Origin: Acidobacteriota bacterium
GTDB lineage: Bacteria; Acidobacteriota; Terriglobia; Acidiferrales; UBA7541
Direction of reading: 5' to 3'
Assembly (NCBI GenBank): GCA_003223295.1
Contig: QHYM01000109.1
Span: 1-44,286 of the forward strand
Length of the DNA stretch: 44,286 nt
In this document: piece by piece, positions 16,838 through 27,992 of the stretch
How the letters are laid out: each line of letters opens with the position of its first letter
Numbering within the stretch: position 1 is the stretch's first letter
Made by a program: the position numbers and the translations under genes
The notes under the pieces: generated by a model
The model's database searches: none
The model's input: only the letters and a program-made list of their open reading frames with translations
Told to the model about the DNA's origin: nothing

Positions 16838-17596
16838 TCAGTCTGCTGCCGCGCTTGTGACGCGCTCTGCTTGCAGCGCTTCTTCCACTGGCGCGGAAAT
16901 AATTTCCCGGACGCGGTCGCGCAAGGCCGGCACATCTTCTTTCCGAAGCCCCTCGGTCTCAATGATGTCATGCAAGTAAACAATGATTTTTGTCGGCCAC
17001 AGCATCCAGTGACCAGTGCTGTGGTGCTGAAATGAGCCCACCAGGCTGACCGGAACAATAGGAACAGCGAGCTGTTGCGCGACACGAAAGCCGCCGTCCT
17101 GGAATTCCAGCAGGTGACCGTCGCGGGTGCGCTTGGCTTCGGGGAAAATGACCAGGCTGGTGCCGGAATCAATTGCTTCCTGCGTCAAGCGCCACATGCG
17201 TTTCAAGTCCGATGGCCGCCGCACATCCGGTACCGGGACGTTCCCGAAGCGCTTCATCAACCAGCCGTACGCGGGGATCTTGAAATGCGACTCCAGTTCC
17301 CAGCCGCGGACAAACTGCGGAATGGCGCAGTACAGCATAAAAGGATCAAACAGATTGACGTGGTTCGAGAAAAAGAACGAGGTGCGCTTGGGATCGAAAC
17401 CGGCCGAGCGGCGAACCTCGACCGTTGCTCCGGAAAGAAAAGCGATGCGCAGGCATAAGCCACGCTGCAGCCGATCGTGTTTGCGAGGGTCAAGAAAAAA
17501 TCCCAGGAACACCAGCACAGGGACGACAAGGAAGAAGTGCAAGGCACTGAGAATCCACAGAAGCCCGCTGCGCAAGGCGAACCACGCCTTTTTCAT
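16838..17596 (-). CDS. PlsC-type lysophospholipid acyltransferase
   Basis: A 252-residue acyltransferase with an N-terminal membrane helix (about 8-35). The catalytic motif is NH79-VNLF-D84 (HX4D). The second motif reads FPEAKRTRDG (151-160), a variant of the usual FPEGTRSRDG. The enzyme class moves an acyl group from acyl-CoA or acyl-ACP to a lysophospholipid or related hydroxyl. Start ATG 17596 overlaps the lipid-kinase stop as ATGA; an in-frame extension to 17641 is rejected for that reason. Last gene of the lipid operon. Confidence 0.9.
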   Translation of the reverse strand: MKKAWFALRSGLLWILSALHFFLVVPVLVFLGFFLDPRKHDRLQRGLCLRIAFLSGATVEVRRSAGFDPKRTSFFFSNHVNLFDPFMLYCAIPQFVRGWELESHFKIPAYGWLMKRFGNVPVPDVRRPSDLKRMWRLTQEAIDSGTSLVIFPEAKRTRDGHLLEFQDGGFRVAQQLAVPIVPVSLVGSFQHHSTGHWMLWPTKIIVYLHDIIETEGLRKEDVPALRDRVREIISAPVEEALQAERVTSAAAD

Positions 17597-18492
17597 AGAA
17601 ACACATCCACCGCAGCGGGAAGAACGTCGAGGGAGCGGCATTCCAGCGTGGCGACTTCCCCATCAATCATGATGTCTACCGGAGCAGAAATGTTGAATTC
17701 TACGTGGCGTACGGCTCGGCGCGAGGCCAGGGGATGCTTGATGTGCGAGCCGTCATAAAGCCGCGGCAAGTTGCGCAGCAAGCCCAGCCGGCCGATCGGG
17801 CCCCAGCGGACAAACTCGATCAAGCCATCCGTGGGATCCGCTTGCGGAGCGATGAGCATGGTGCCGCCAGTGTATTTGCTGTTGTTGAAAGTGAGGAACA
17901 GGGAGCGCCGCTCGTCCCAATCCTGATCCTCGTCGCAGCGCAGCGCGAAAGAGCGCCGGTGCAATTGTGCGACACGCACGAAAACGCCAAGCAAGTAACC
18001 GAGAGGACCGAAGGGCTTGAAAGCGCGATTCGTCAGAGCCGCAACGTCAGCGGTGAAGCCGACACTCAGGAGGTTGAAGGAAACGACTTCGCCCGTTGCG
18101 TGATTCAGTCGAATCAGATCGATCGCGCGTTTGCGGTTTTCCAGAATCGCCTGCGTCGCAGTTTCTGCGCCGTTCTTGGAAAAGTCCCGCAAGAAGGAAT
18201 TGCCCGTTCCCAGCGGAAGGAATCCCAGGGCGACGCGCTCCACAGATTTGCGGCCGGCAAAGACGCCGTTCAGGATTTCATGGGCCGTTCCATCTCCTCC
18301 GACGGCGAGAAACTGACGGTAGCCCTGATCGTAAGCTTCGCGCGCAAGCTCGACGGCATGTCCCGGGCCAGTCGAAGCGACACTGTCCACGTGCAGCCTG
18401 TTCTGGCGCAAACGAGCCAGCGCAACTCCGGCGAGTTTCGCAGAGCGGCCGCCACCGGCGGCGGGGTTCACGATGGCGAAAAATCGTTGCAT
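17593..18492 (-). CDS. Diacylglycerol kinase-family lipid kinase (YegS/DgkB-like)
   Basis: A 299-residue soluble lipid kinase. NPAAGGG at 9-15 and the nucleotide-binding GGDGT at 65-69 are intact, and GTGNS follows at about 95. The beta-sandwich C-terminal domain is complete, so the length is normal for the family. It phosphorylates diacylglycerol, a long-chain base or another lipid alcohol. It lies 17 bases after an AMP ligase gene and overlaps the PlsC gene, suggesting sequential action on one intermediate: phosphorylation and acylation of a glycerol or long-chain alcohol backbone. Confidence 0.9.
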   Translation of the reverse strand: MQRFFAIVNPAAGGGRSAKLAGVALARLRQNRLHVDSVASTGPGHAVELAREAYDQGYRQFLAVGGDGTAHEILNGVFAGRKSVERVALGFLPLGTGNSFLRDFSKNGAETATQAILENRKRAIDLIRLNHATGEVVSFNLLSVGFTADVAALTNRAFKPFGPLGYLLGVFVRVAQLHRRSFALRCDEDQDWDERRSLFLTFNNSKYTGGTMLIAPQADPTDGLIEFVRWGPIGRLGLLRNLPRLYDGSHIKHPLASRRAVRHVEFNISAPVDIMIDGEVATLECRSLDVLPAAVDVFL

Positions 18493-25623: not shown

Positions 25624-27992
25624 AAAGAGTCGGACGGCACCGCCGCCTTCGAAAGAGCTTCTTGCTCCGCAGGCTGGCCGTTCCCGTTCCAATCGAGCGC
25701 GCGCGGCTCGCGCGATTCCAGTGGCCGGCCTTCCATCAACGGATAGCACCAGCGCCGCAAAGCCGGGATGTGGACGTTGATCCAGTAATCCCACCAGTCC
25801 ACCGCTTCCGGTGTGAAATCAAAGAGGGCCCGCTCTTCGCCCGGCAACGCCGCAGAAAGCAACCGCGCGTTCTCGCACTCGAACACATGTTCATTGTGAA
25901 GAATGAAGGGCTCGTAAAGCTCAATGAGCTTTTCGGCACGAATCAGGTCGCGTTCCGCCTTGGCGAACGGCGCTTTTTTCAAGTGGAGTGTCACCGCCAC
26001 GCGGTTGATCCCCGAAACCACGGCCTTCTGCATGGGAATCGACATCCGCTCGTAGCGCTGCTTCGACACGGGGATGGTCTCGAACTTCACTTTCAGCCAG
26101 TTTTCAACGCTTTGCGAGGTGCGGTAATGCTTGCGGTGCGCGAGCCCGGTCAACTCGATGCTGCGGCCCATGTTGACGGGATTGATCGCCGACGTCGCGA
26201 GCTGGTAGAGCCGCGCATGGCGCCTCGCTATGACCGCCGCGGCAATCAGCGTCATCCCGCGGCACACCATGTCCACCGGAATCACGTCCAGGCATTTCCG
26301 CTCGTTCGACGGAAGCTGACGGAAATTTGTGCCCAGCAAATACGACAGCGGCCCGGAAGTGTTGATTCCTTCGTTCCACCCTGTAAACGGCGAACGCTCA
26401 GAACTCTCCACGATGGACGGGCGCACAATCGCAATCGGAAGGCCCTTACCATGCCGCGCGAGCATCGATTCGCCGAGACTCTTCGTGAACGTGTACGTGT
26501 TCGGCCAGCCCAGGTGCTGCGCACGGCGCATGCCTACATAGGTCAGCCGGTTGCGCACCCAACGTGCGCGGTTCCGCCGCAAGACGCCCTCAAGCTCCGC
26601 CGCAGGCGCTGAGGTTTCATCCCCGCCACGGCCCAAAGCTTGTCGGCGAAGGGCCTTGTTCAATTCGAGACTGTCAGCGCGCGATTCGATGCGCCCAATC
26701 CTCTCCCGCAGCGATGCAATCTCATTTTCAGCATCGAAGCGAGGATCCCGCGCAGGATTATAATTGTCTTCCAGTTGCTCGCCAACGCGCCCGTCACGCA
26801 TGCCCACGACGTAGCAAGTCGAAAGATGCATCAGGCCGGCGTGCTTGCATTTGCGGAGGAAGTCGAGCAGGTGAAGCGCGGAATCGACGTTCGAGGAAAG
26901 GGCGTCGCGCAAATCCGGGTTAAAGTCCGTCAGTCCCGCGCTATTGACGACTAAATCGACTGACTTGTGCAACCGAGCCTGCGTGGCCTCCTCCAGTCCT
27001 AAGCCGGGCAAACTCACGTCGCCTTCGACGACTTCTACCTTTTCGTTCAGAAACGCGCCCAGCTTTTGGCCGTGCCGTTCGTGGAAATTATCGAAGGCTG
27101 GCGATTCCTCGACGATTTTCTCGAATCGCCGTTGCGCGGAGGTCGTGCGGTTGCGCCGGATCAGCAGCGTGATCTTGCCGATGGTTGGAATCTTCTCCAG
27201 CAAATCGACGAGCCAAACTTTGCCGATGAATCCCGTCACGCCGATCAGCAAAATATGCCGCTCCGCCAGTGTTTCACGGACCGGGAGATTATCGACGCGT
27301 GGGGCATCCCCGAAAACCGAAACGCGCCTTTTCGGAAGCGGCACTGCCCTGGCCGTCCGCTGGATTCCTCTTTCCAAAAGCTCAGACTTTTCGGCCCAGC
27401 CAAGCTGGCTGAGAAGCTTTTCTCTCGATATTCTTCCGTCTACCGGGCTGCCCGCCAGCCAGGCCAGTGGCCCGCGCGGGCGCACGATGGGATCAAGCAA
27501 CCGTCCGGTCGCCTTCCCATCCCGGTATTCGAGGCGGTTCGCCAGAAACGATTCCACGCCCAGATGATGTGCCAGTGGCCGAAGGATGTTTTCAAGTAGC
27601 TGTCCTACCAATACGACCTGCTCCCCTTGGCGAATCGCCGCAACCACCTTTTCCACAGCTGCGGCGCGCAGTTGCGGCTTCAGAACATAGTTGAAGTATT
27701 CTTCGCCCAGCAGGTCCAAGCGGTCGCGGCTGACACCCCGTAGCAGCATGTGCAAAAGCCGTGTCGCGAAGGTACGGCTCGCCGCATAGGCGAACGGCCG
27801 GGCCAGCGCCATTCCGGCCATGCCGGCGCGCCGTGCCCAGCGCTCGGAAAAGCTTCGCGCATTCCAGGTGAAGAAGCCCACGGGGCGCAATGCGCCGAGC
27901 TCCAGGAGGGAGCCTTCCACGCGCCAATAGGTGATTTTTCCGCTCTCTTTGGCGGTCTTGGCATGCGTCGATTTCGAAACAGGATTTGTCAT
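25608..27992 (-). CDS. Fatty acyl-CoA/ACP reductase with degenerate N-terminal HAD domain
   Basis: A 794-residue fusion and the first gene of the lipid operon. Residues about 18-185 align with HAD phosphatases of the type fused to lipid enzymes, but motif I reads YWRVEGSLL where an active enzyme has FDxDGTL: the nucleophile Asp is Arg and the acid Asp is Glu. Motif II ([15 protein letters not shown]) also lacks its Ser/Thr. The second part is a complete alcohol-forming fatty acyl reductase: [10 protein letters not shown] at 251-260, YTFTK with Y500/K504, and a C-terminal FAR domain. It should reduce long-chain acyl thioesters to fatty alcohols with NAD(P)H. ATG 27992 is preferred to an in-frame GTG at 28031; neither has a strong ribosome binding site. 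Confidence 0.88.

Follow-up and report, generated by a model that had tools for sequence, protein, structure and literature searches.

The closest published system to the locus described here is the elb operon of Myxococcus xanthus. In the available part of its description (PMC9131029), elbA to elbE include ElbD, which combines fatty acyl reductase, acyl-coenzyme A (acyl-CoA) synthetase, acyl carrier protein, and acyltransferase domains, together with ElbB, a HAD protein, and ElbC, which is described there as being of unknown function. The available part of PMC11868695 calls the formation of ether bonds in Acidobacteria unclear and restricts homologues of elb or agps to a part of the subdivision 4 genomes. 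Here we describe a nine-gene operon within a 44,286-nucleotide stretch of acidobacterial DNA (contig QHYM01000109.1 of assembly GCA_003223295.1; this whole stretch is called the window). The operon appears to be an elb-like system rather than an elb operon and probably makes a glycerolipid with a chain derived from a fatty alcohol. Among the matches listed in searches of the open literature, no published account of this operon was found.

Organization and conservation of the operon

Nine closely spaced genes occupy positions 16838 to 27992 of the window, all on the minus strand, and are named here in order of transcription FAR, SDR, PYR, ACL1, ECH, ACP, ACL2, DGK, and PlsC. FAR (25608 to 27992) encodes a fatty acyl reductase that carries a HAD domain at its N terminus (approximately residues 20 to 180) and a Sterile domain at its C terminus. 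It overlaps by 16 bases (25608/25623) the gene for SDR (24469 to 25623), a thioester-reductase-type dehydrogenase of the NAD_binding_4 family, which in turn shares a 4-base overlap (ATGA) with PYR (23033 to 24472), encoding a polysaccharide-pyruvyl-transferase-like protein. A gap of 7 bases separates PYR from ACL1 (21334 to 23025), an AMP-forming acyl ligase with an AMP-binding_C_3 domain, and ACL1 overlaps by 4 bases ECH (20534 to 21337), a crotonase in which both catalytic glutamates are recognizable by motif. After 72 bases follows ACP (20219 to 20461), an acyl carrier protein whose gene has one base in common (TAATG) with ACL2 (18510 to 20219), the other AMP-forming acyl ligase; 17 bases lie between ACL2 and DGK (17593 to 18492), a lipid kinase of the YegS/diacylglycerol kinase family. 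The acyltransferase gene PlsC overlaps DGK by 49 bases if translated from the start given in the initial annotation (17641) and by 4 bases (ATGA) from the start at 17596, which is assigned here by context (16838 to 17596). Of the eight junctions, five are overlaps, and the other three are gaps of 7, 17, and 72 bases. The number of genes, their strand, their coordinates, and their spacing agree with the initial annotation.

The nine proteins and the product of a gene that converges on the operon all exceeded the curated Pfam cut-off of their own family, which bears out the families that had been named from the DNA alone. The matches were NAD_binding_4 (186.5 bits), HAD (47.4 bits), and Sterile (36.7 bits) for FAR, NAD_binding_4 (140.8 bits) for SDR, AMP-binding for ACL1 and ACL2, ECH_1 for ECH, PP-binding for ACP, DAGK_cat and YegS_C for DGK, Acyltransferase for PlsC, and CDP-OH_P_transf for the convergent gene. 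No ketosynthase domain was found by Pfam in these ten proteins, in agreement with the earlier judgment that this is not a polyketide cluster.

A search of 297 genomes of the phylum with FAR as the query (E ≤ 1e−20) gave matches in 45. A HAD-FAR ortholog (approximately 53 to 59% identity) was present in nine genomes, including the window's own genome (G000), while the match lay within an open reading frame of 1442 to 1570 residues in 32 genomes and FAR stood in another context in four (G131, G095, G188, and G238). When one genome per species was scanned, 250 FAR relatives were found, and the 80 best of these were retained as loci; 49 of the 80 extend 9 kb or more past FAR and are referred to as long loci. 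The first eight genes were found on one strand and in the same order in 44 of the 49 long loci, so that the gene set is conserved beyond chance, and all nine were found in order in 21. FAR, SDR, PYR, and ACL1 were each present in all 49, followed by ECH (48), ACL2 (47), ACP (46), DGK (45), and PlsC (21). The five long loci that fall short of the eight-gene order are L057, L060, L073, L084, and L121. The eight operon loci from the other sampled genomes all carry FAR, SDR, PYR, and ACL1 in order, with strong matches to ECH in seven, ACP in six, ACL2 in six, DGK in five, and PlsC in one; the stretch of one of the eight (L032) stops at a contig end. Among the eight core genes, pairwise distances between the encoded proteins correlated at 0.77 to 0.96 over 39 loci, indicating that these genes have been inherited together. 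The nine genes appear to form one operon, a conserved and co-inherited unit. Synteny, whose absence from close relatives the initial annotation had set against its own reading, was found to be conserved, and its view of a gene set for a lipid, perhaps with an alcohol-derived chain, is supported.

Seventy-eight of the 80 kept loci come from records titled uncultured Acidobacteria, with MAG in the title and with gp1 and gp2 among the lineages named. Of the remaining records, L129 is an untitled bacterium (HR10) and L065 (CAJCHZ010000005.1), which carries the whole operon with a FAR 76% identical, is titled Betaproteobacteria and is most likely a mislabelled bin. Four loci (L057, L060, L073, and L075) carry an insert of approximately 2.7 to 3.2 kb between ECH and ACP/ACL2 that holds HtrA-like serine proteases and a LuxR-type response regulator, as named from sequence.

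Comparison with acidobacterial elb loci

Twelve acidobacterial elb-type loci (L039 to L050) formed the comparison set. Acidobacterial elb loci hold a HAD protein, a LarA-like protein, ElbD, and an ElbE-like dehydrogenase; a HAD protein matching the N terminus of FAR was found in 11 of the 12, and a lipid kinase lay nearby in seven. A search with ElbD as the query gave, among the matches listed, matches over most of the ElbD length in the same 32 genomes in which FAR had matched a long open reading frame, three of them in two pieces. The domains of ElbD are homologous to FAR, ACL2, ACP, and PlsC, with ACL2 aligning to the ligase domain, and all four activities are encoded in the operon, judged by domain. 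As far as the available description of elb goes, the two systems have in common a HAD domain, FAR, an AMP ligase, ACP, PlsC, an NAD-dependent dehydrogenase, and often a lipid kinase. The initial annotation had likened the operon to the multidomain elb locus of Myxococcus, but as separate genes with a pyruvyl transferase. That link was sustained, as acidobacterial elb loci combine matching domains for reductase, ligase, carrier, and PlsC with a HAD protein homologous to the HAD domain of FAR, and the activities of the single ElbD polypeptide are split in the operon among four separate genes, to which PYR is added.

The shared HAD domain, FAR, ligase, ACP, and PlsC, with a kinase near seven of the elb-type loci, would suit an operon that makes a plain elb-type ether lipid, the elb product itself, by an ether step common to both systems, with PYR, ACL1, and ECH as accessory genes that modify the chain or have a regulatory role. 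In a tree of FAR proteins, those of the operon made up a single clade (100/98) that adjoined nine FARs (98/94) from one group of elb loci, which would also fit. This tree was built solely of sequences found with FAR as the query, was rooted at its midpoint, and has long branches adjoining, so it is at most consistent with kinship to elb. Other features set the operon apart from elb, and we consider this plain elb-type reading quite unlikely. The HAD protein of elb-type loci is separate and keeps its nucleophile, with DxDGT or DxEGT in 11 of 11 proteins aligned by eye, whereas the HAD domain of the operon is fused to FAR and has lost its nucleophile: its motif W23 R24 x E26 G27 S28 L29 is invariant in all 38 aligned FARs, and R24 replaces the nucleophile Asp in each of them. 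The operon SDR is unlike ElbE, scoring only 21 bits against acidobacterial ElbE, and PYR, ACL1, and ECH are additions relative to elb, PYR never being found with an ElbD fusion among the 297 genomes.

The LarA-like protein also distinguishes the two systems. It is of the LarAH14/15/16 type, is assigned as the acidobacterial ElbC by its position, and is present in all 12 elb-type genomes (in G008 on a contig other than that of ElbD). The operon lacks it, and no LarA-like protein was found in the nine operon genomes save for one weak partial match of 44 bits in G235. The protein stands at the ElbC position in L041 (5585 to 7180), L048 (5505 to 7100), and other elb loci, and that of L041 scored 822.5 bits, with a cut-off of 740 bits, as NPN-dependent hydroxyacid isomerase LarAH14/15/16 (NF052592). 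No full-length ElbD was matched in the nine operon genomes, with the two best candidates scored per genome. On its gene content, the operon would be an elb-like system, a rebuilt relative that is kin to elb in its parts yet fails several of the features that define elb. A separate 931-residue protein of the window genome (L172, 803 to 3598) is a relative of ElbD in its ligase-ACP-PlsC portion and has no reductase; matches of similar extent are common across the phylum.

By profile and by fold, the solved structure closest to FAR is the fatty acyl-CoA reductase 7eoz, and the reductase motifs GxTGFIGK and YxxxKS were kept in 72 and 76 of 80 FARs. A fatty acyl reductase paired with an acyltransferase is a theme of wax-ester synthesis, and the likeness to 7eoz would suit a wax-ester or storage-lipid operon in which the FAR alcohol is esterified by PlsC or another transferase and no ether is formed. 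We regard this as very improbable. No wax-synthase-type family was present in the ten proteins, the rest of the genome not having been searched for one, and the lipid kinase and the pyruvyl transferase would be left with no obvious role.

The pyruvyl transferase-like protein and the proposed product

PYR scored 33.4 bits against PS_pyruv_trans (PF04230; Pfam gathering cut-off 25.3) and 59.9 bits against the CsaB equivalog model (TIGR03609; cut-off 213.1), to which it aligned over residues 37 to 381. The call of a pyruvyl transferase-like protein in the initial annotation thus stands for the superfamily but not for the CsaB equivalog. An AlphaFold2 model of PYR (pLDDT 88.6) has a GT-B fold, as is reported for Pvg1p in the available part of PMC4872226. 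Residues R176, R346, H348, and R368 were each conserved in 63 of 63 proteins. The phosphoenolpyruvate (PEP) site residues of CsaB named in the accessible text of PMC10435577 are R148, R306, H308, and K328, and the spacing of R346/H348/R368 equals that of R306/H308/K328, a match made by motif and not by direct alignment, with Lys as the last residue in CsaB. The likeness of PYR to CsaB and Pvg1p, within what these sources describe, lies in the Pfam superfamily, the GT-B fold, and, by motif and spacing, an R-x-H pair followed 20 positions later by a basic residue. PYR differs from CsaB in falling far below the equivalog cut-off and in being almost confined, in the phylum sample, to the lipid operon. 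It was matched in 10 of the 297 genomes, comprising all nine with the HAD-FAR operon and G131, where the match is weak at 24% identity (P = 2e−16). One operon genome (G062) has a second PYR copy, 35% identical, away from the operon (L171, 8485 to 10074), that adjoins a gene on the opposite strand named as patatin-like from its sequence. A membrane-binding N-terminal helix, suggested by residues 2 to 22 of the model, was considered and rejected, as the mean hydrophobic moment of 62 proteins was 0.30 compared to a background median of 0.24 and a 95th percentile of 0.47 for the window protein.

A simpler account of PYR, in line with the initial annotation, is that it places a pyruvate ketal on the head group of an alkyl or acyl glycerolipid, such as a sugar or, in phosphatidylglycerol, the distal glycerol, and that the part of ACL1 and ECH is confined to chain tailoring. 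The superfamily score, the alignment to the CsaB model, and the residues that fit a PEP site by motif and spacing would all agree with it, as would the activity of CsaB and WcfO on lipid-linked sugars (as reviewed in the available part of PMC6801904). The CsaB cut-off is missed by far, however, and Pfam finds no glycosyltransferase among the nine conserved genes, though PYR itself has a GT-B fold. A capped head group would also leave no clear role for the second ligase (49 of 49 long loci) and the active-looking hydratase (48 of 49), and we consider this account somewhat unlikely.

Active-site residues are also kept in other proteins of the operon. The sole solved relative of SDR at E ≤ 1e−12 is the reductase domain of the myxalamid protein MxaA (4u7w; E = 2.7e−20), and its pattern including YxxxK was kept in 71 of 71 proteins. 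The operon SDR stands alone, outside any synthetase. The available part of PMC2835699 includes the myxalamid reductase domain in its list of domains for which four-electron reduction of a thioester to the alcohol has been demonstrated. The ligase motif pattern was found in 44 of 48 ACL2 proteins and in 29 of 58 ACL1 proteins, the lower count arising mainly because many ACL1 proteins read EAKG, not EPKG; the best NCBIfam relative of ACL1 is a FadD11-type model, under its cut-off. ECH has E125 and E145, which we take to be the crotonase catalytic glutamates, each in 57 of 57 proteins, and its closest solved structures are the hydratases or dehydratases 5jbw, 5jbx, and 1hzd. The attachment serine of ACP (S40, in a GIDSL motif) was conserved in 51 of 51 proteins, GGDGT of DGK in 40 of 40, and NHxxxxD of PlsC in 20 of 20.

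The product is probably an alkyl glycerolipid. As a whole, the reading that we place first, tentatively and at somewhat less than even confidence, is that the operon produces a glycerolipid whose alkyl chain derives from a fatty alcohol and does so as a rebuilt relative of elb. PYR, ACL1, and ECH, the genes that elb does not have, are present in 49, 49, and 48 of the 49 long loci, and a route that employs them can be proposed in which the glycerol backbone is built on the fatty alcohol from PEP and not from glycerol phosphate or dihydroxyacetone phosphate. This is the mechanism to which we commit, although taken by itself we consider it unlikely to be right. ACL2 would load a fatty acid onto ACP, and FAR would reduce the ACP thioester to a fatty alcohol, with its HAD domain perhaps serving as a structural or substrate-handling part. 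PYR could then transfer a three-carbon unit from PEP onto the hydroxyl of the fatty alcohol. A fatty alcohol has a single hydroxyl and no second one to close a ketal, so an alkyl enolpyruvyl ether would be expected. ACL1 would convert this ether to its CoA thioester, 2-alkoxy-acrylyl-CoA, and ECH would add water to the terminal carbon to give 2-alkoxy-3-hydroxypropionyl-CoA. Crotonases hydrate 2-substituted acrylyl-CoA at the terminal carbon, and methacrylyl-CoA is the established case. A four-electron reduction of the thioester by SDR would yield 2-O-alkylglycerol, which DGK may phosphorylate and PlsC acylate for entry into the phospholipid pathway. Its appeal is that all nine genes receive a role. 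Were it right, and we hold this to be equally unlikely, it would yield alkyl ethers of the sn-2 type and be a new way to ether glycerolipids.

Other routes to ether lipids were sought in the same genomes. The AGPS route of mammals and of M. xanthus (MXAN_1676) likewise uses a fatty alcohol made by FAR. In the window genome, which is estimated to be 95% complete, no AGPS-like protein was found, the PF02913 proteins of this genome being GlcD-like (L152) and YdiJ-like (L163); an ElbD fusion, an ElbC-type LarA, and a PF09989 protein were not found in it either. PF09989 is taken here as the marker of the PlsA/Ger reductases, which convert esters to ethers and would likewise yield alkyl or alkenyl ethers. 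The marker was not found in seven of the nine operon genomes, the window genome included. PlsAR homologs have been proposed for Solibacter usitatus, an organism lacking ElbD, in the available part of PMC10087280.

Several observations weigh against an alkyl glycerolipid made by a rebuilt elb system, and against the PEP route in particular. All 80 of the kept relatives appear to be uncultured bins (L065 and L129 by reading of their records). PlsC was not found in 28 of the 49 long loci. Among the eight operon loci taken from other sampled genomes, three have no DGK match within the stretch examined, and L036 has no ACP, ACL2, DGK, or PlsC in the 7.5 kb past ECH. The profile of PYR matched no solved chain at E ≤ 0.1, and the best fold matches of PYR are UDP-N-acetylglucosamine 2-epimerases, foremost, and glycosyltransferases; no pyruvyltransferase is among the 50 fold matches shown in each list, an outcome that points neither toward nor away from such a function. 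The known members of the PYR superfamily make sugar ketals, and we know of no precedent for enolpyruvyl transfer to a fatty alcohol. A PF09989 protein is encoded in two of the nine operon genomes (G062 and G132), which may therefore have a further route to ethers. The nine operon genomes and the 32 ElbD genomes do not overlap. We rejected this exclusion as proof that one system replaces the other, since approximately one shared genome would be expected by chance and none has a probability of 0.35, which makes the absence of ElbD from the operon genomes weak evidence of replacement.

Flanking genes and significance

The gene that converges on the operon (16209 to 16826, plus strand) encodes a CDP-alcohol phosphatidyltransferase by Pfam, its best NCBIfam match being an archaetidylinositol-phosphate-synthase model (163.8 bits, under the cut-off of 180). 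Its convergent orientation was correctly noted in the initial annotation. It lies outside the conserved set, as such a gene was seen in only 14 of the 49 long loci, and it was rejected as part of the operon core. Directly upstream of FAR lie leuB- and leuA-type genes (28328 to 30729), named from sequence, and a LeuB homolog was found upstream of FAR in 25 of the 53 loci that have more than 4 kb before it. Beyond the convergent gene are two GMC oxidoreductases on the minus strand (11963 to 13624 and 14396 to 16174), with an open reading frame between them that resembles gluconate dehydrogenase subunit 3, again as named from sequence only. A match to the cytochrome c subunit family of the photosynthetic reaction center (PF02276, 66 bits) was found at 10732 to 11883, in a lineage that is presumably nonphototrophic. 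Between positions 16100 and 28500 there were 2 promoter-like and 18 terminator-like sites compared to 3.9 and 16.2 in shuffled sequence and thus no excess of either.

How widely ether-linked lipids are made among Acidobacteria is an open question that is tied to the branched tetraether temperature proxies. The operon provides a conserved and testable candidate for ether-lipid synthesis in lineages that include those titled gp1 and gp2, and the LarA-type hydroxyacid isomerase that holds the place of ElbC in acidobacterial elb loci offers a handle on ElbC itself. On a modest reading, the operon would represent the elb system in a second form, with its domains split among genes. If the PEP route were true, it would be a new origin for the glycerol of membrane lipids.

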